Source: a virus. From it: a stretch of 56,510 nucleotides of DNA. Of the stretch, positions 26,267 to 47,988 are shown in pieces. A program made the translations under genes and the position numbers. How positions within the stretch are numbered: the first letter of the stretch is position 1; each line of letters opens with the position of its first letter. Below the pieces are notes generated by a model. It saw only the letters and a list, made by a program, of their open reading frames with translations. It was not told where the DNA came from and did no database searches. The stretch spans positions 1 to 56,510 of IMG/VR virus record IMGVR_UViG_3300042549_004468. One strand, written 5' to 3'.

Positions 26267-28153
26267 TTAGAATTTTAGATATCCGAGTATCTGGTTTATT
26301 GGAGCAAATGCTCCGGTAAGTTTGTATAGTTTTTCATTGTACTTAAATACAATTCCTTCTGTAGGCATGATAGCGCTGAATCCACCTATGTCTTTTAAGC
26401 GAGCTAATTCTCTTGTTAAGAATTTTAGTGCTGCTGCTCCATCGTCCGTATTGTCTGTCTTCGAGAAGGCTTTAATTTGCTCAATTGAACTTCTCAAATC
26501 ATTTTTCATTTTCCTAATGCTATTGTTAGGATTTAATGATACTAAATTTTCAATATTTCCAAGAGTGTAAACTCCTAGCTTTAAAAATAAGTTTTCAATT
26601 GGCTTACCTGCAATCTTTTTTTGATCGTTGTAATCTTTCTTATCAAAGTTGATTACCCAATTTTTAAACTCTTCATTTTGAATGCCATCACGGATTACTT
26701 TGATATTGGTTTCTTTGTTTCCAAAAGACCATCTATTAATTAACTGCATCATTGTGTTTTCAGGCACAGTGTACTGAAATCCTTTTGCTATTTGGCTAAT
26801 ATAGTTTCTCCACCAAGCTTGAAAGTAAAGACCCAACTTATCTGTAGGTTTTAGCTTGTATGTAGCCATTATAGTTGCAATCATCTTACTCAGCTCTTCT
26901 TTTTGAGCTTTGTATTCTGCAGACTTTCTGATTGTGATAGGATCTGTTGTTCTAATCTCGTAAGTCTTTTGAGTTTCTGCTTGTACTTGACGTATAGCTC
27001 CTTGTAACTGTCTTACTGCTTCGATATCTTCACCAACTACATTACCTGCTTTATCATACTCTTTAATGTGGTGAAGTCTCAATTGAGAAGCACCATAAGG
27101 AACTACATTAGCTGTTGGAGGATAAAGTACTTCTAAATTTACAAATTTAGCTCCATTTGCAAAAAACTTTTGCTTTTGAGCTGTGGATAGTTTGTTGATA
27201 GCCATTTCCAAATCCTTCATTGCTTCTGCAAATGCTTCTTGGATAGGACCTCTACCTGCAAATGTGTCTTCAACTTGTTTTACTGTCAGAGAGTTGGCTC
27301 CAAAATCTTTTACTTGTCCTTTGTTTCTTGCTGCTCTTACTTGACCATCCTTATAAGTTACCATTAGATTTTGTCCATCTAATTTCTCTTGTGCTGATTC
27401 TAATGTACCACCTAATGCAGCATTAATCATGTTTTGGATATCTTTAAACGTAAGATCGTAATCTTCGTATGGATGTGCAAGATGTCCTGCTGCTCCTCCT
27501 TCTAATAGCATCATAGATTCTGATATTGCTCCTGTCTTCTTTGTTAGAGTGTTGTAGATTGTACGAAGAATGTTTTCAGGTATTGTTGATGGATAGTTTG
27601 TTTTAAAGTTTTTGTAATCCTTCTTTGCTAAGTCTTGTCTTAATATTGAAGCACTAACACCTTTACCATTTGATCCATCTGTTCTTCCAGTATATAGTAA
27701 TGGTCTTGTGTTTAGAGGTAGTTCAATTACATTTACACCGGCTTTGTGATATTTAGATCCTTCTGCATGACCTTCTACGAACTTTTTAACACGTTCGTAA
27801 TCTTTACCTTTGCTACTTGCTGCTAATGCATAAGTTCCTGGTTTAGCTGTTTCAATATATTTGTAGGCTGCTAGTAGTGGATTATCTTCTGCTACTTTTT
27901 GTACTGTTATTCCTCTAGTACCTATTAGCAACTCATTCCATACTGCAATACTCTGTTCTCTCGTAATACCTTCACGTTCTTTTGGACCAATTAAGATCTT
28001 TACTTCAGAAACATTTGGTAGTTTTGAATATTTTACTGCCAATTCCAAATGACCTCCATGAGGTGGCTTGAATCCGCCAGGTAACAATACAATAATGCCT
28101 GTTTCAGCTTCTTGCAATATACCTTCTACTAAATACTTAGTTAAATCATTCAT
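26267..28153 (-). CDS. Bifunctional HxGH nucleotidylyltransferase / ligase-like nucleotidyltransferase (628 aa)
   Basis: Domain 1 (about 20-200) is a nucleotidylyltransferase of the NMNAT/cytidylyltransferase superfamily: GGFKPPHGGH with HGGH at 32-35 and GVSASILRQ at 165-173 in the place of the ISSTxxR motif. Domain 2 (about 215-628) has ligase/capping-type motifs: KLDG at 257-260 (motif I, Lys257), NLEVLY with Glu341 (motif III), and EGIVFK at 599-604 (motif IV), then KLYK. It resembles phage DUF6267-type proteins with KWDG. The N-terminus MNDLTKYLVEGILQEA looks like a T4-type capsid-targeting sequence with LVE and LQE. The start is ATG 28153; a TTG one codon earlier is less likely. It overlaps the preceding gene by 8 bases, and a TATTTATA box lies 15 bases upstream. 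Confidence 0.8.
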   Translation of the reverse strand: MNDLTKYLVEGILQEAETGIIVLLPGGFKPPHGGHLELAVKYSKLPNVSEVKILIGPKEREGITREQSIAVWNELLIGTRGITVQKVAEDNPLLAAYKYIETAKPGTYALAASSKGKDYERVKKFVEGHAEGSKYHKAGVNVIELPLNTRPLLYTGRTDGSNGKGVSASILRQDLAKKDYKNFKTNYPSTIPENILRTIYNTLTKKTGAISESMMLLEGGAAGHLAHPYEDYDLTFKDIQNMINAALGGTLESAQEKLDGQNLMVTYKDGQVRAARNKGQVKDFGANSLTVKQVEDTFAGRGPIQEAFAEAMKDLEMAINKLSTAQKQKFFANGAKFVNLEVLYPPTANVVPYGASQLRLHHIKEYDKAGNVVGEDIEAVRQLQGAIRQVQAETQKTYEIRTTDPITIRKSAEYKAQKEELSKMIATIMATYKLKPTDKLGLYFQAWWRNYISQIAKGFQYTVPENTMMQLINRWSFGNKETNIKVIRDGIQNEEFKNWVINFDKKDYNDQKKIAGKPIENLFLKLGVYTLGNIENLVSLNPNNSIRKMKNDLRSSIEQIKAFSKTDNTDDGAAALKFLTRELARLKDIGGFSAIMPTEGIVFKYNEKLYKLTGAFAPINQILGYLKF

Positions 28154-28691
28154 CAACGGTGTCTTGGTTATAAATATGCTTGTTATTAAGTTGACGTCTT
28201 AAATTAGCAACTTCTACTTGTAATTTTTCTGTTTTATCTATTAAATTCATTACCAACTTGCCTAAAGGTATGTCTCTTATAGCTTCATGCTTTTTAAAGT
28301 ACAAATCATCTGCTACTATATCACCATCAACAAATAGTTTACAATTACTATACACATTTTCATCCAGAGATTGACCGACATACACCTTTTCCATATTACG
28401 GTATGGTATTATTTCACGCATCTCAACATTCTTTGTCATTGGATTGTATGAGAGGTAGTGTAGTATGAAGAAGATAGCATCTCCTTTTAATTGCTTATCG
28501 GTAGATGGCATTCCTATCCTTAGACTATAAGGATTTTGTTCATGCTTATCTCTTATTTGAAGAATGTTTTCACCTTGCCAACTTTGGTATATGTTCTTAA
28601 GTTTAATCTTACCTAAAGCATGCTCATTAACCATTCCCTGTATTGCTGGAAATGGGATTGTACAGTTTCTTATATTGCCTGTGTTTATCAT
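28146..28691 (-). CDS. Tail-associated hypothetical protein with C-terminal coiled coil (181 aa)
   Basis: The first half is beta-rich and not recognised. The second half (SNCKLFVDGDIVADDLYFKK, IPLGKLVMNLIDKTEKLQVE, VANLRRQLNN) resembles the end regions of phage fibre proteins, where a short beta segment is followed by a trimeric coiled coil. Starts three bases after the 454-residue structural gene stop and overlaps the next start by 8 bases. Possible fibre adaptor or fibre tip; function inferred from these features only. Confidence 0.6.
   Translation of the reverse strand: MINTGNIRNCTIPFPAIQGMVNEHALGKIKLKNIYQSWQGENILQIRDKHEQNPYSLRIGMPSTDKQLKGDAIFFILHYLSYNPMTKNVEMREIIPYRNMEKVYVGQSLDENVYSNCKLFVDGDIVADDLYFKKHEAIRDIPLGKLVMNLIDKTEKLQVEVANLRRQLNNKHIYNQDTVDE
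28169..28177 (-). promoter_or_regulatory. TATTTATA box upstream of the double nucleotidyltransferase gene
   Basis: Coding strand ATATTTATA, 15 bases before the ATG, inside the last codons of the preceding gene. Being within coding sequence, chance cannot be excluded, but spacing equals that of intergenic copies. Confidence 0.45.
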
Positions 28692-32207: not shown

Positions 32208-32216
32208 TATAAATAT
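32208..32216 (-). promoter_or_regulatory. TATTTATA box 4 bases before the 712-aa gene
   Basis: Coding strand ATATTTATA between the stop of the recombination fusion gene and the ATG. With only 4 bases to the start codon, a -10-type box would yield a leaderless or nearly leaderless mRNA. Confidence 0.45.
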
Positions 32217-32219
32217 CGT

Positions 32220-35200
32220 CTAACAATTTATATAGCTAAAATCATCTTTACGATCTATAGTTATTATATTGTCAACCATATCTCTAACAACATCAATGTG
32301 AGATATTACTAAACTGAACCTGAATACATCCTTCATATATGTGAATAAAGTGTGCATTGAGTTAAGATTGCTACTATCTAACACTCCCAAACCTTCATCT
32401 AGTGCAATGAAGTCAGGCTTTGGTAGGTTAGTAATCTTAATCAAAGCTATACGAAGTGCTAAAGATGATAAAAAACGCTCCATTCCAGAGCTTAACTCTA
32501 GTGGCCACTTTGCATCATCATAGCAAATAAATACATTTATATTCTTTCCATCTGTCTCTAGTTCAACTGTGAAGTCAATGACCTGGTTTAAGATGTTATT
32601 GACATATTGTTGTATGTATGGAACAGCTTTGCTTATCATTACATATGGTATGCCATCTTTACAAACAGCTTTGCAATATAGGTCGTAGGCTACTTGTCTA
32701 TCAGCCAACTCTTGCATATGTCTAATAGATTCATTACACTCATTAATAACCTGTTCAGCTACCCTTATTTTAGCATGAAAATCCTTTACTGTATTGTTAG
32801 CTTTGGATAGATCTATCTTTTTTAATGCTATTTTTCCTTGTATATCTTTGATTTGAACGTGGATTGCTTTGTTGTTACTAAGTATTGCCACATTGTCATT
32901 ATACACCTTTATATCCCCTTTAATCTTGTCTATTTTGTGTTTTTGGATATCTATATCTTTCTTGATACGATCATAGGCATTCTGCAATCTCTCTGCTGCT
33001 ATCACAGCTTCTTTATGGTTGTTGAGTGCTATCTGTAGTTTGTTAGCTTCTTCCTGTATAAACTTATTGTTTTCGATAAACTCTGATACTTTACCTATTT
33101 TTTGCAAAAAGTCATGTACCACCTTCTTGTCGTTCTCTAACTCACCCTTAGTGTCAATAGCATCCTTTACAAATACGTTTGAAGTACAATACTTGCAATT
33201 AGGATCATACTCGTGTTTTTCAAGTTTTTCCAGCTTTGATAGCTTGTTTGATATTGTAAGTTTCATTGTGCTGAGTGTGTTATCTAACTCACTCTTCTCT
33301 TGTAACTTTGCGTTGTACTCCTTGTATAGGTTGTTATCAAAAGAACTTTTAGTCTTATCTAAATTCTGCGTAGCTTCATGTAAAACTATCTGCTCATCTT
33401 GTAATTGCAAATGTGCTGTTGAAGCATCTTGACCCAGTTTAGCTAAGTTGTTTTCTGCTAATTGCAAATCTTTTTCTAACACTACAATATCCAAACCATC
33501 AGCTGTACAAGGTTGTAGTTGCTTGTTTAAATCAAGCTGTTGTTCACTTAATATGTGTAAGTCAGCTTCTGCACTATCTAATACCTTTTGAGCTTCTTCA
33601 TGCTTACCTTCGTTAGTTTCTTTAGCAGTTTCAGCATCTCCTAATTTAGTCTCAAAATCTTGCTTTTGGTACTCTTCTAACACTATTACAGCTGTTCTAT
33701 TCTCTTTGTTAGCTAACTCATATAGTGAGTCAAATATTTTCAAATCTAAAAAGTTAGCTAATAAATCCTTTCTTTCACCCTGAGTCTTATCGATAAAGTT
33801 TGAGTTATTACCTTGTAGTGATAGTGCAGTTAAAATGAAGTCATCAAAGGTTCCTACATAGGATTGAATAATCTTGTCTGTATCCCTTCTTTGCTCACCA
33901 TTCAAGGATATCTTATTGTAGTCAGCATCTATGTACCAAAAATCTATATCTACACGAAGCTTACCAGCTAATGGTCCTTTTAGGTATCTTGTAGCTTTTT
34001 TCTCTACAAAATAATCTAAACCACCTAACTCAAATTGAAACTTACACCAGAAGCCATCCTTCTTTCTATTCAATACTTGCTCAGCTTTGCTCGCTCTGAA
34101 AGAGTGATCAAACAAACAAAAGCAAAGAGCATCTAAGATGGCTGATTTACCTGCATGATTAGGTGCAAACAATCCACATGTTCCATCCAGCTTTTCAAAG
34201 TTTATTGAGTTGCCTTCACCATAACTAAACATATTATCAAACTCAAACTTCTTTGGTTTCCAAACTACGTTACGAGCTGATTCTCCTTGGTTTAAAGTTT
34301 GATTAAGTGTTGTATTGATTTTTAGTATGGATTCCATCAACTCTGCATCAACATCGAACTGCTGTAAGTAATCCGTTATCAATTGGTTTTGGTGTTGAAT
34401 GTTACGTACATCTCCTTGGTGAAGAGATTCTCCAAATAATTGATTATCAGTAGTGCTTGTGTTCTTATCTAACCTCTGAACAATTACATCACTATTACGA
34501 TATAGTTTTCTAATTGTTGCAAGGATTCTTTTTACTTCTGCTGCTGAAGTGTTTTTAGTTCTTAGTCGTACGTTTGTTTTAGAGTTGATTGGTAAGTTAT
34601 CAGGCAATACTCCTGAATCTACATCTAATGTATAGAATCCATATGGATTTGGAATATCAAAAAACTCATACTTAATGTCTCCTTTAGTTCTCAAATCACA
34701 AAGAGCATAACCATGTCCTTCAAAAGATTCTCCAAAGTTTTGCTGTACCAATGATCCTGGATAGAAAATGATTGGTTCGCTCTTACATAGGACTTGTCTT
34801 TTGTGAATGTCTCCTAATAAAACTAAATCAAAATTTGCAAAAGTATCCCAATCTAAACCATGTGACAACACTAAACCACTATCAACTTTACTATTAGCAA
34901 TAGTACCGTGATACATAGCTATTGTGTGTTTGTATTCTTTATTTTGTGGTAATTTGTCAGCTGTTATGTAATCTGTTACTGGATCAAGTAAAGACATGAC
35001 ACTTATAGCTACGTCACCAATTTCGTATACTCCTGAGTTGCGTAGGTAGAAAAGATTAGGATGATTGTTAGCTTCTATTATTGGAGTTAAAGCATCTAAT
35101 CTGTTGTTGTTATTTAGATTTGTGTCATGATTACCACAAATAACTATTGTAGGTCTTCTTGTAGCCAATTCATTAAACAGGTATGAAGTCATGTTAATTA

Positions 35201-35405
35201 ACTCAGGACTCATGTCAGTTTTAGCATGAACAATATCACCTCCAACAGTAACAATACTATTGTCAGGTAACTCATCAACAGCTACAAGTAATTTTTTAAA
35301 CACCTCTTTGAACTCAACATGTCTTTTCCAGTTTCGCAAATGGATATCTGCAATATGGAGTATGTGATCTACTTGGGTTATTTTATTTTTAATTTTGTTA
35401 ATCAT
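32220..35405 (-). CDS. Fused Mre11/SbcD nuclease and Rad50/SbcC ATPase, gp47-gp46 fusion (1061 aa)
   Basis: Residues 1 to about 365 are an Mre11-type phosphoesterase with all metal-binding blocks: DIH (20-22), GGDIVH (55-60), GNHD (91-94), YHG (165-167), GDIH (198-201). From about 380 a Rad50-type SMC ATPase starts: Walker A APNHAGKS (414-421), long coiled coil, CKYC zinc hook (C737, C740), returning coil, signature LSSGMER (971-977), Walker B FIALDEG with D1003-E1004. In T4 these are separate proteins gp47 and gp46, which process DNA ends for recombination-dependent replication. All catalytic residues are kept and the frame is uninterrupted. The gene is coupled to the primase by an ATGA overlap. 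Confidence 0.95.
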   Translation of the reverse strand: MINKIKNKITQVDHILHIADIHLRNWKRHVEFKEVFKKLLVAVDELPDNSIVTVGGDIVHAKTDMSPELINMTSYLFNELATRRPTIVICGNHDTNLNNNNRLDALTPIIEANNHPNLFYLRNSGVYEIGDVAISVMSLLDPVTDYITADKLPQNKEYKHTIAMYHGTIANSKVDSGLVLSHGLDWDTFANFDLVLLGDIHKRQVLCKSEPIIFYPGSLVQQNFGESFEGHGYALCDLRTKGDIKYEFFDIPNPYGFYTLDVDSGVLPDNLPINSKTNVRLRTKNTSAAEVKRILATIRKLYRNSDVIVQRLDKNTSTTDNQLFGESLHQGDVRNIQHQNQLITDYLQQFDVDAELMESILKINTTLNQTLNQGESARNVVWKPKKFEFDNMFSYGEGNSINFEKLDGTCGLFAPNHAGKSAILDALCFCLFDHSFRASKAEQVLNRKKDGFWCKFQFELGGLDYFVEKKATRYLKGPLAGKLRVDIDFWYIDADYNKISLNGEQRRDTDKIIQSYVGTFDDFILTALSLQGNNSNFIDKTQGERKDLLANFLDLKIFDSLYELANKENRTAVIVLEEYQKQDFETKLGDAETAKETNEGKHEEAQKVLDSAEADLHILSEQQLDLNKQLQPCTADGLDIVVLEKDLQLAENNLAKLGQDASTAHLQLQDEQIVLHEATQNLDKTKSSFDNNLYKEYNAKLQEKSELDNTLSTMKLTISNKLSKLEKLEKHEYDPNCKYCTSNVFVKDAIDTKGELENDKKVVHDFLQKIGKVSEFIENNKFIQEEANKLQIALNNHKEAVIAAERLQNAYDRIKKDIDIQKHKIDKIKGDIKVYNDNVAILSNNKAIHVQIKDIQGKIALKKIDLSKANNTVKDFHAKIRVAEQVINECNESIRHMQELADRQVAYDLYCKAVCKDGIPYVMISKAVPYIQQYVNNILNQVIDFTVELETDGKNINVFICYDDAKWPLELSSGMERFLSSLALRIALIKITNLPKPDFIALDEGLGVLDSSNLNSMHTLFTYMKDVFRFSLVISHIDVVRDMVDNIITIDRKDDFSYINC

Positions 35406-36328
35406 AAAGACATTTTAAAGGTTATTAGGTCAAAAAAGTCTACTTTCTTAGCTCTGTCCTTAGCTTCAACCATAGACAAATATCCAGCTTCACTTGGATC
35501 TTTTCCTGGAAGATGGACTAAATAAACTTCTACACCATTGTTCATAAAATATTCAATCTCTTTCACACTACTCTTAAAAGCATCAGTATCTAATGACAAA
35601 TAGAGTTTTTGTACCTTCTCAGTTAGTATCTTATTTCTTAAGGTACTCAATATTATTTTACCAAACAACGGTATTGCGTTCCTTTTAGTTGCTATTGCAT
35701 CGAATGCACCTTCTACAATTGTTATAGGCTCTTTCCAGTTGATTTGGTTCTCAAATCCAATGATATCTTTAGTTACTGGTGGGTTCTTATGCTTAACGGT
35801 TGCGTTGTCATAAAAGCTTCTGCCTACGTAATAGTTAATCATGTTGTGTTCATTATAGCTTGGAATGATCAACATTCCAGCATAAGGTCCTTCTTCACAA
35901 TAACCTACCTCATATCTTAGGATATCCATAGGAGTTAGCTTTCTTACTTGCATCGCATAGTGTAAAGCATTTTTATAGTCAGGTGTGCCTTGTGGTATGT
36001 ATAATGGTTTGTAATGCTCTGGTAGTCCAACTATCTCTCTGCTGAAGTTGTTTTTGTTACTAAAGTTGTTATCACCATAAATCTCTCGAATCTTCTGATA
36101 ACTTTGGTTTGGAGCATTACTCTTTTTGAGTAGGGATGTTAGGGTTTGTCCCTTACTATCGCATGTCCAACAGTGCCACTTCTGTGTATTTATGTTGACT
36201 TGAAGTTTTCTCTTATGGTGATTGCAGAATGGACAGTAGTAGCTTATCTCCCCACTTTTCTTATGTTGCATGCTAGAACCTAGATGCTCATCAATAATGT
36301 GTTTTACTTCCAATAAGTTTAAAGTCAT
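35402..36328 (-). CDS. 61: DNA primase, gp61-like (308 aa)
   Basis: Zinc-ribbon plus TOPRIM primase that lays RNA primers for lagging-strand synthesis. Zinc ligands: CPFC (C32, C35) and HCWTC (C53, C56). TOPRIM motifs: VEGAFDA (Glu) and SLDTD (DxD) near 230, followed by GKDPSEAG. T4 gp61 is 342 residues, so size fits. The longest frame would start at TTG 36361; I use ATG 36328..36326 (MTLNLLEVKHIIDEHLG), which gives the natural N-terminus of this family. It is coupled to the Mre11-Rad50 fusion by a four-base overlap. The partner helicase (gp41) is not in the window. Confidence 0.92.
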   Translation of the reverse strand: MTLNLLEVKHIIDEHLGSSMQHKKSGEISYYCPFCNHHKRKLQVNINTQKWHCWTCDSKGQTLTSLLKKSNAPNQSYQKIREIYGDNNFSNKNNFSREIVGLPEHYKPLYIPQGTPDYKNALHYAMQVRKLTPMDILRYEVGYCEEGPYAGMLIIPSYNEHNMINYYVGRSFYDNATVKHKNPPVTKDIIGFENQINWKEPITIVEGAFDAIATKRNAIPLFGKIILSTLRNKILTEKVQKLYLSLDTDAFKSSVKEIEYFMNNGVEVYLVHLPGKDPSEAGYLSMVEAKDRAKKVDFFDLITFKMSL

Positions 36329-36368
36329 ATTTGAATATACAACTTTTATTCTATAAAACAAAGAATGG

Positions 36369-36770
36369 TTATTTCAACCAATCGCTTGGTATGATCTTGT
36401 CTGAGAATTGAAAACCGTGTTTAACACACCAATCTGCATAAGTAGTTTTAGATCCTTTTCTAATCTTTCCTTTAGAGTTTTGAAACACAAATCGGATATC
36501 CAATTCAGGATGTTGCTTTTTTATCAAAACGTGTTTTGCTCTATCTTCTGTCACAAACCTTCCTTTAGTTTCTATAAAGATTCCGTTAGGTAGTTTAAAA
36601 TCAGGTGTGTATGTGTGTTCAGATTCTGGTATGATATACTTGATCTTATGCTTCTCATACTCTCCATCAATGCTGTTTTGAGATAGTAGCTCGTTTATAT
36701 CTGCTTCCAAGCCACTTCTGTAACCTCTTACTAATGCTGCTTGTCTTTTTGCGAATCTTGCTTTTTTCAT
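36369..36770 (-). CDS. T7-type endonuclease I, Holliday junction resolvase (133 aa)
   Basis: Matches T7 gp3 along most of its length: SGLEADI, IIPESEHTYTPDFKLPNGIF, IETKGRF, KKQHPELDIRFVF, and SDKIIPSDWL at the end. Catalytic residues by alignment with T7 (E20, D55, E65, K67) are E22, D57, E67 and K69, all present. It resolves four-way junctions and branched DNA before packaging. T4 itself uses an unrelated enzyme, endonuclease VII (gp49), so this is a mosaic acquisition. It stands immediately upstream of primase and the recombination nuclease. Confidence 0.95.
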   Translation of the reverse strand: MKKARFAKRQAALVRGYRSGLEADINELLSQNSIDGEYEKHKIKYIIPESEHTYTPDFKLPNGIFIETKGRFVTEDRAKHVLIKKQHPELDIRFVFQNSKGKIRKGSKTTYADWCVKHGFQFSDKIIPSDWLK

Positions 36771-38539: not shown

Positions 38540-38548
38540 TATAAATAT
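38540..38548 (-). promoter_or_regulatory. TATTTATA box 4 bases before the 583-aa gene
   Basis: Coding strand ATATTTATA directly after the terminator-like structure and 4 bases before ATG. The terminator-box-start order makes it a strong promoter candidate with a very short leader. Confidence 0.5.
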
Positions 38549-44963: not shown

Positions 44964-44972
44964 TATAAATAT
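44964..44972 (-). promoter_or_regulatory. TATTTATA box upstream of the 1512-aa gene
   Basis: Coding strand ATATTTATA in the 51-base gap after the 989-residue gene, 9 bases before the ATG. Confidence 0.45.
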
Positions 44973-47979: not shown

Positions 47980-47988
47980 TATAAATAG
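47980..47988 (-). promoter_or_regulatory. TATTTATA box 4 bases before the 989-aa gene
   Basis: Coding strand CTATTTATA in the 15-base gap between the two Ig-domain genes; only 4 bases remain before the ATG. Confidence 0.45.

Follow-up and report, generated by a model that had tools for sequence, protein, structure and literature searches.

A phage gene that joins an Mre11-type nuclease and a Rad50-type ATPase in one reading frame

In this study, we analysed a stretch of 56,510 nucleotides from a virus (IMG/VR record IMGVR_UViG_3300042549_004468, positions 1 to 56,510; hereafter the window) and found that its minus-strand gene at 32220-35405 is a genuine fusion, in which an Mre11-type nuclease is followed by a Rad50-type ATPase that carries a zinc hook. 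The open reading frame (ORF) starts with ATG, encodes 1061 amino acids (aa) and has no internal stop. A preliminary description of this DNA had contrasted the frame with the separate proteins of phage T4 and of bacteria. These are indeed separate, yet joined forms have been in print since 2011, when Mimivirus R555 was described as an Mre11/Rad50 fusion and twelve further fusions were reported from bacteria (some of them plasmid-borne), eukaryotes and a Bacillus phage (Yoshida, Claverie & Ogata, 2011; PMC3175470). The window gene is therefore a further, ordinary example of an arrangement that had already been described.

Very probably, the gene encodes an R555-type enzyme in which Mre11 and Rad50 (SbcDC) form a single chain; two such chains would be the equivalent of the M2R2 complex and would process the ends of phage DNA. 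The N-terminal metal-dependent phosphoesterase would be the nuclease, and the C-terminal ABC ATPase, with its coiled coil and zinc hook, would clamp DNA ends. The helix-loop-helix of the Mre11 half would stay attached to the coiled-coil root, a short linker would tie it to the first ATPase strand, and two such chains would dimerise. Most likely, by analogy with T4 gp46/gp47, DNA ends and hairpins of the phage would be processed for recombination-dependent replication; genes for a primase and a T7-type endonuclease I lie beside the fused gene.

One frame with the motifs of both enzymes

Pfam profiles place Metallophos at residues 15-202 and AAA_23 at residues 390-630, and phmmer comparison with PDB sequences connects the N-terminal part with SbcD/Mre11 chains and the C-terminal part with SbcC/Rad50 chains. 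The preliminary description had reported Mre11 and Rad50 motifs in one stop-free frame, and every motif that it named was located in the 1061-aa ORF. The nuclease motifs are D20-x-H22, G56-D57..H60, GNHD (91-94), H166 and GDIH (198-201). On the ATPase side, a Walker A-like APNHAGKS (414-421, with Ala for the first Gly), the CxxC hook CKYC (737-740), the signature LSSGME (971-976), Walker B (D1003-E1004) and the H-loop form a complete Rad50/SbcC set. The coiled-coil arms that flank the hook are about 170 residues each, with helices predicted between residues 556-729 and 744-914.

A scan of viral contigs returned 174 matching stretches, 160 of which code for a related protein; from the top 80, 79 loci were obtained, whose identity to the window protein runs from 99% down to about 40%. 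In alignment A1 (49 rows), the window protein is joined by 48 of the 63 loci whose frame reaches at least 1000 aa, and all its rows are at least 40% identical to the window protein. All 21 motif positions tested are identical in the 49 rows, among them the zinc-hook residues C737 and C740 and the Asp-Glu pair of Walker B.

An error of sequencing or assembly that deleted a stop or a frameshift between two genes could produce such a frame, and false fusions do occur. Listeria phage LMTA-57 (L083, KJ591605.1) has a 1009-aa frame annotated as 'recombination exonuclease', whereas its near relatives have two genes and differ from it in length by one base. The LMTA-57 stretch matches 54 records; the 30 listed comprise two of LMTA-57 itself, five unannotated ones and 23 with at least two annotated features, and in those two-feature relatives that were inspected the aligned span is one base longer than in LMTA-57. 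This frame is most likely a sequencing artefact and was dropped as a natural Listeria fusion. In the window gene, the linker (34263-34295 by alignment) falls within 34250-34350, the stretch that had been flagged for re-sequencing, and a search of related phages for fused and split versions, proposed at the same time, found the junction open at 79 of 79 loci. The frame is open over at least 1000 aa at 63 loci, ends at the contig edge beyond the junction at 12 and is broken elsewhere at four (near residues 207, 113-124, 531/607 and 880-897); none of the 79 has a break at residues 340-400. The same open frame as in the window gene is present in a locus 99% identical in its best segment (L046) and in three loci that are 92% identical (L002-L004). 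In addition, all 49 rows agree in the length of the linker, with 11 residues separating residue 370 from Trp382. Since the junction is intact across the relatives, the reading of a missed stop or frameshift is refuted, and the chance that the fusion is an error of this kind is negligible.

Linker, interface and translation starts

The structure was predicted for the single fused chain from 49 sequences, with a mean predicted local distance difference test score (pLDDT) of 72.8 and a predicted template modelling (TM) score (pTM) of 0.38; the nuclease half is modelled well, the Rad50 C-lobe poorly. Helices are predicted at residues 336-350 and 354-370 (pLDDT of the block 74-89), where Mre11 has its C-terminal helix-loop-helix. 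A low-confidence stretch and then, from residue 382, the first Rad50 strand follow. Residues 13-376 of the model match 3tho_B, the Mre11 chain of an Mre11:Rad50 crystal from Thermotoga maritima, with Z 24.6 over 323 residues at a root-mean-square deviation of 11.3 Å, a value which shows that the helices either sit differently against the nuclease or are placed with uncertainty. In the published analysis of R555, fusion was argued to be compatible with the T. maritima structure, and 9-12 residues were calculated as the linker length with which a fused protein retains the usual interface (PMC3175470); the 11 residues of the window protein fit this range.

It had been proposed that the linker (about 365-380) replaces the Mre11-Rad50 interface. 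Contrary to this idea, the predicted helix-loop-helix is present and is followed by a linker of constant length, and thus the normal contact element is predicted to be retained in the fused chain. The proposal that fusion fixes a 1:1 ratio holds in so far as the halves are made 1:1, but this is no new property, as a 2:2 complex contains both in equal numbers anyway. It is plausible that the single chain dimerises through the zinc hook, in which C737 and C740 are invariant; Mre11-Mre11 contacts and ATP-dependent contacts of the heads would be expected besides it.

Potentially, the fused gene might give rise to two products, the full-length protein and a Rad50 translated from an internal start near residues 356-392. 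Met392 is invariant (49/49), and the start of the fused gene itself has no Shine-Dalgarno match, a feature it shares with other genes of the window: the 4-base Shine-Dalgarno motif is missing at 40 of the 41 starts checked on the minus strand, which suggests that the host does not use it and makes it no guide to the starts of this phage. However, Met392 lies just behind the first predicted ATPase strand (382-390), so that a start there would remove this strand, and W382 and F387 are invariant as well. In-frame starts with a 4-base Shine-Dalgarno motif at residues 330-400 were found in 7 of 65 frames (the 63 open loci, the window and Microcystis phage Mel-JY01), which is a weak test; the motif precedes the first Met of the fused frame in none of the 65, and its lack at the junction therefore says little. 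Taken together, we regard a separate Rad50 product as very unlikely.

Active site, relatives and interrupted genes

R555 was compared through its published description. Like R555, the window protein has the order Mre11-linker-Rad50 in one chain, with a helix-loop-helix and a short linker, and it carries both deviations reported for R555, namely His where the motif II pattern has its third Asp, and Asp at the position of Pfu His206 in motif V; unlike the window protein, R555 has 1351 aa and a longer coiled coil (PMC3175470). The motif II His (H60, in the pattern DxH-GDxxD-GNHD) is present in 49 of 49 rows. It is a weak mark, as it also occurs in two split phage proteins (BSP36 and LMSP-25) and is absent from several distant fused ones. 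In motif V, D199 is likewise present in all 49 rows, and an Asp stands there in 22 of 23 fused versus none of five split proteins aligned; it is also found in L091 and L092. In these alignments, the motif V Asp is the better mark of the R555 type. The canonical Mre11/SbcD mark GHxH is absent at this position of the window protein, and the remaining metal-site residues tested are present.

The split pairs compared were T4 gp47/gp46 and those of Bacillus phage BSP36, Listeria phage LMSP-25, Moorella phage MTATph1 and phage LR756511. Like the window protein, they have both enzyme halves and presumably the same job; unlike it, they are encoded by two genes and have GH-x-H at motif V (5/5). Escherichia coli SbcCD and the Mre11-Rad50 proteins of T. 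maritima and Pyrococcus furiosus, which are encoded by two genes and have GHxH at motif V, share fold and motifs with the window protein and are remote from it in sequence. Separate trees of the Mre11 and Rad50 halves (28 rows each, 23 fused and 5 split; the fused L081 and L185 were left out), with midpoint roots and small sampling, gather 22 of the 23 fused proteins, of the Asp type, behind a branch supported at 100/99 (Mre11) and 99/98 (Rad50), and set the five split pairs apart. The unverified human-faecal phage clone L087 (MT837445.1) carries a fused frame that is cut at its 5' end and reads GHIH at motif V.

The nearest named phage is Mel-JY01 (PP395634.1), in which the gene is fused over its full length (38.6% identity), encodes GDIH and, as in the window, has a primase-like gene beside it; a GIY-YIG gene is close by as well. 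It differs in that the protein is annotated as 'AAA domain containing protein' only and that a small extra ORF separates the gene from the primase. Fused frames are also present in the 735-kb phage LR756501, in 6 of 10 examined loci found with it, and in Tenacibaculum phage pT24. When predicted viral structures were compared by fold, long giant-virus proteins (Tupanvirus, Harvfovirus, Yasminevirus and others) led the matches, aligned over most of their length, those that are named at 17-27% identity and with low TM-scores, as expected for long coiled coils. Tenacibaculum phages and LMTA-57 stand lower; pT24 and LMTA-57 were the fold matches examined further, and in pT24 both halves were confirmed.

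The 'SbcC-like' profile phrog_77 (967 positions) matches residues 291-1059 of the window protein. Two Rad50-only proteins match the profile from 291-294 and the window protein from about 201. The profile seems to be partly built on fused proteins, in which case the nuclease half would be hidden in annotations. No phrog_77 match was found in Flavobacterium phage immuto or Rhodothermus phage RM378, which have related capsids. The profile also misses the fused gene known in pT24, and hence absence of the enzyme from immuto and RM378 cannot be inferred; this idea was dropped as unsupported. Two candidates for a split ancestor of the Asp type were rejected as well, L195 from a metagenome-assembled genome (MAG) of Flavobacteriaceae, whose ORF ends against opposite-strand genes on a probably chimeric contig, and L192 from a WOR-3 MAG, which runs into masked bases.

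Some points weigh against an R555-type enzyme that processes phage DNA ends. The evidence is computational throughout, consisting of the fusion, conserved motifs, predicted helices, neighbours and relatives. The Rad50 C-lobe has a pLDDT mostly below 50 from residue 938 on, so that with the low pTM the model is a poor guide to the packing of the domains, and an internal start for a separate Rad50 retains the small share given above. Both half-trees group L087 with the split Moorella phage pair (93/86 and 97/93), a placement for which the program warns of long branches. Finally, Asp in place of His at motif V and a Walker A without its first Gly could alter activity. Given GDIH and APNHAGKS, it is conceivable that the enzyme is a DNA-end tether or ATPase with a weakened or changed nuclease. 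Both motifs are fixed in 49 of 49 rows, including the Ala of Walker A, and the motif V Asp goes with the fused proteins. However, neither the motif III His nor any of the remaining metal-site residues tested varies, Asp can bind metal, and strict conservation speaks for function, so that a tether of this kind appears unlikely. For the single-chain nuclease and ATPase that we prefer, we infer the contact between helix-loop-helix and coiled coil, the dimer, both activities and the role in replication, the last together with DNA-end processing from T4 gp46/gp47 and from the neighbouring genes. As to history, the trees would suit one old fusion for the lineage of the window and at least one separate fusion, with L087 probably independent.

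In three lineages (L040, L085 and L183), an interruption separates the GDIH codons of the fused gene from a PGSLVQQN-type motif downstream, and an endonuclease-like ORF lies at the interruption in two of them (L085 and L183). L085, from the 484-kb phage LR756508, has a 34-residue tail with a stop, a 305-aa ORF that matches a TnsA-like endonuclease domain (27.2 bits against a Pfam cut-off of 26.5) and then the remainder of the gene. L183, which L182 resembles, has a 9-residue tail, a stop and a 298-aa ORF with zinc-finger and endonuclease-like stretches recognised by eye, after which the remainder of the fused gene reopens from an ATG. L040 belongs to the clade of the window; here a 28-residue tail ends in a stop, no endonuclease is present, and the remainder reopens in another frame. 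L040 and L085 have similar tails that end in YL..GW (BLOSUM62 local score 56, reached in 0 of 2000 shuffles). An Rfam search with gathering thresholds found no intron or other family at the point of insertion in these two loci. A single family for the inserted endonucleases of L085 and L183 was rejected, the BLASTP match being weak (E 4e-04, single comparison). Homing endonucleases make genes in pieces in T4-like phages, with Aeh1 nrdA as a precedent, and the interruptions resemble such genes. It is tempting to speculate, as a possibility more than an expectation, that the fused enzymes of the Asp type form an old single-chain lineage particular to viruses, with a metal-site chemistry of their own, that the site after motif V is a recurrent landing site of mobile endonucleases, and that in L040, L085 and L183 the fused gene has been cut anew within the nuclease, so that the enzyme has to assemble from two pieces.

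Neighbourhood, carrier phage and significance

The coordinates of the fused gene, its parts, its upstream neighbours and the interruption regions of the relatives are collected in Table 1.

Table 1. Features of the fused gene and its surroundings. Positions are those of the window unless a locus is named; aa = amino acids, − = minus strand.
Feature	Position	Strand	Evidence
Fused Mre11-Rad50 gene, 1061 aa	32220..35405	−	ORF, Pfam, phrog_77, phmmer, open frames in relatives
Mre11 calcineurin-like nuclease domain, residues 13-250	34656..35369	−	Pfam Metallophos; SbcD/Mre11 fold match, Z ~24
Motif V GDIH, residues 198-201, Asp replacing the first His of GHxH	34803..34814	−	49/49 rows
Mre11 capping domain, residues 251-312, approximate limits	34470..34655	−	predicted fold
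Mre11 helix-loop-helix, expected Rad50-binding element, residues 336-370	34296..34400	−	two predicted helices
Inter-domain linker, residues 371-381	34263..34295	−	11 residues in 49/49 rows; pLDDT <50 at 375-380
Rad50 N-lobe with Walker A-like APNHAGKS, residues 382-556	33738..34262	−	Pfam AAA_23; alignment
Zinc hook CKYC, residues 737-740	33186..33197	−	both Cys in 49/49 rows
Rad50 C-lobe, residues 915-1061: LSSGME, Walker B DE, H-loop His	32223..32663	−	phmmer, alignment
DnaG-type primase-like gene, upstream, 4-base overlap with fused gene	35402..36361	−	Pfam, PHROGs
T7-type endonuclease I (Phage_endo_I)	36369..36770	−	Pfam, E 4.9e-60
Interruption regions in relatives	L040:3097-3187; L085:5560-6650; L183:3000-4200 (L182 alike)

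A homologue of the primase lies upstream at 79 of 79 loci, and one of endonuclease I at 62 of the 75 loci that have at least 1500 bases upstream. T7-type endonuclease I is a Holliday-junction resolvase. On the downstream side, the next gene encodes 712 aa and has a homologue at 42 of 54 loci with enough sequence. These upstream neighbours recall the aquatic relatives of R555: according to the published account, R555-like genes are abundant in aquatic viruses of the GOS data, some of them probably phages, and their scaffolds carry phage primases and T7 gp3-like endonucleases (PMC3175470).

The 56.5-kb virus record that carries the fused gene also contains genes for head, terminase, portal and baseplate proteins. 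For the major head protein, identity amounts to 53.3% with Mel-JY01, 51.7% with immuto and 36.3% with RM378, which suggests that the carrier is T4-related and perhaps belongs to the Far-T4 group (PMC4360716). The terms gp46, gp47, Mre11 and SbcC do not occur in the text of that Far-T4 description (PMC4360716). Elsewhere in the window, 26267-28156 encodes a 629-aa protein with a weak match to a cytidyltransferase profile. The element TATTTATA is present in 18 copies, against a shuffle mean of 9.07 (1 of 100 shuffles reaches 18). Sixteen of the 18 copies are on the minus strand, for example at 32208-32215, 38540-38547, 44964-44971 and 47980-47987, and the element lies within 40 bases upstream of 11 of the 41 starts checked; perhaps it is a promoter element.

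In summary, this study adds a clear phage example of the fusion in a T4-related genome, a large and well-conserved clade (160 related stretches) and an insertion site. Annotation of such genes as 'SbcC-like' or 'AAA domain' can hide the nuclease half. With its single chain, constant 11-residue linker and arms of about 170 residues, the protein would be convenient for Mre11-Rad50 biochemistry and structural work.

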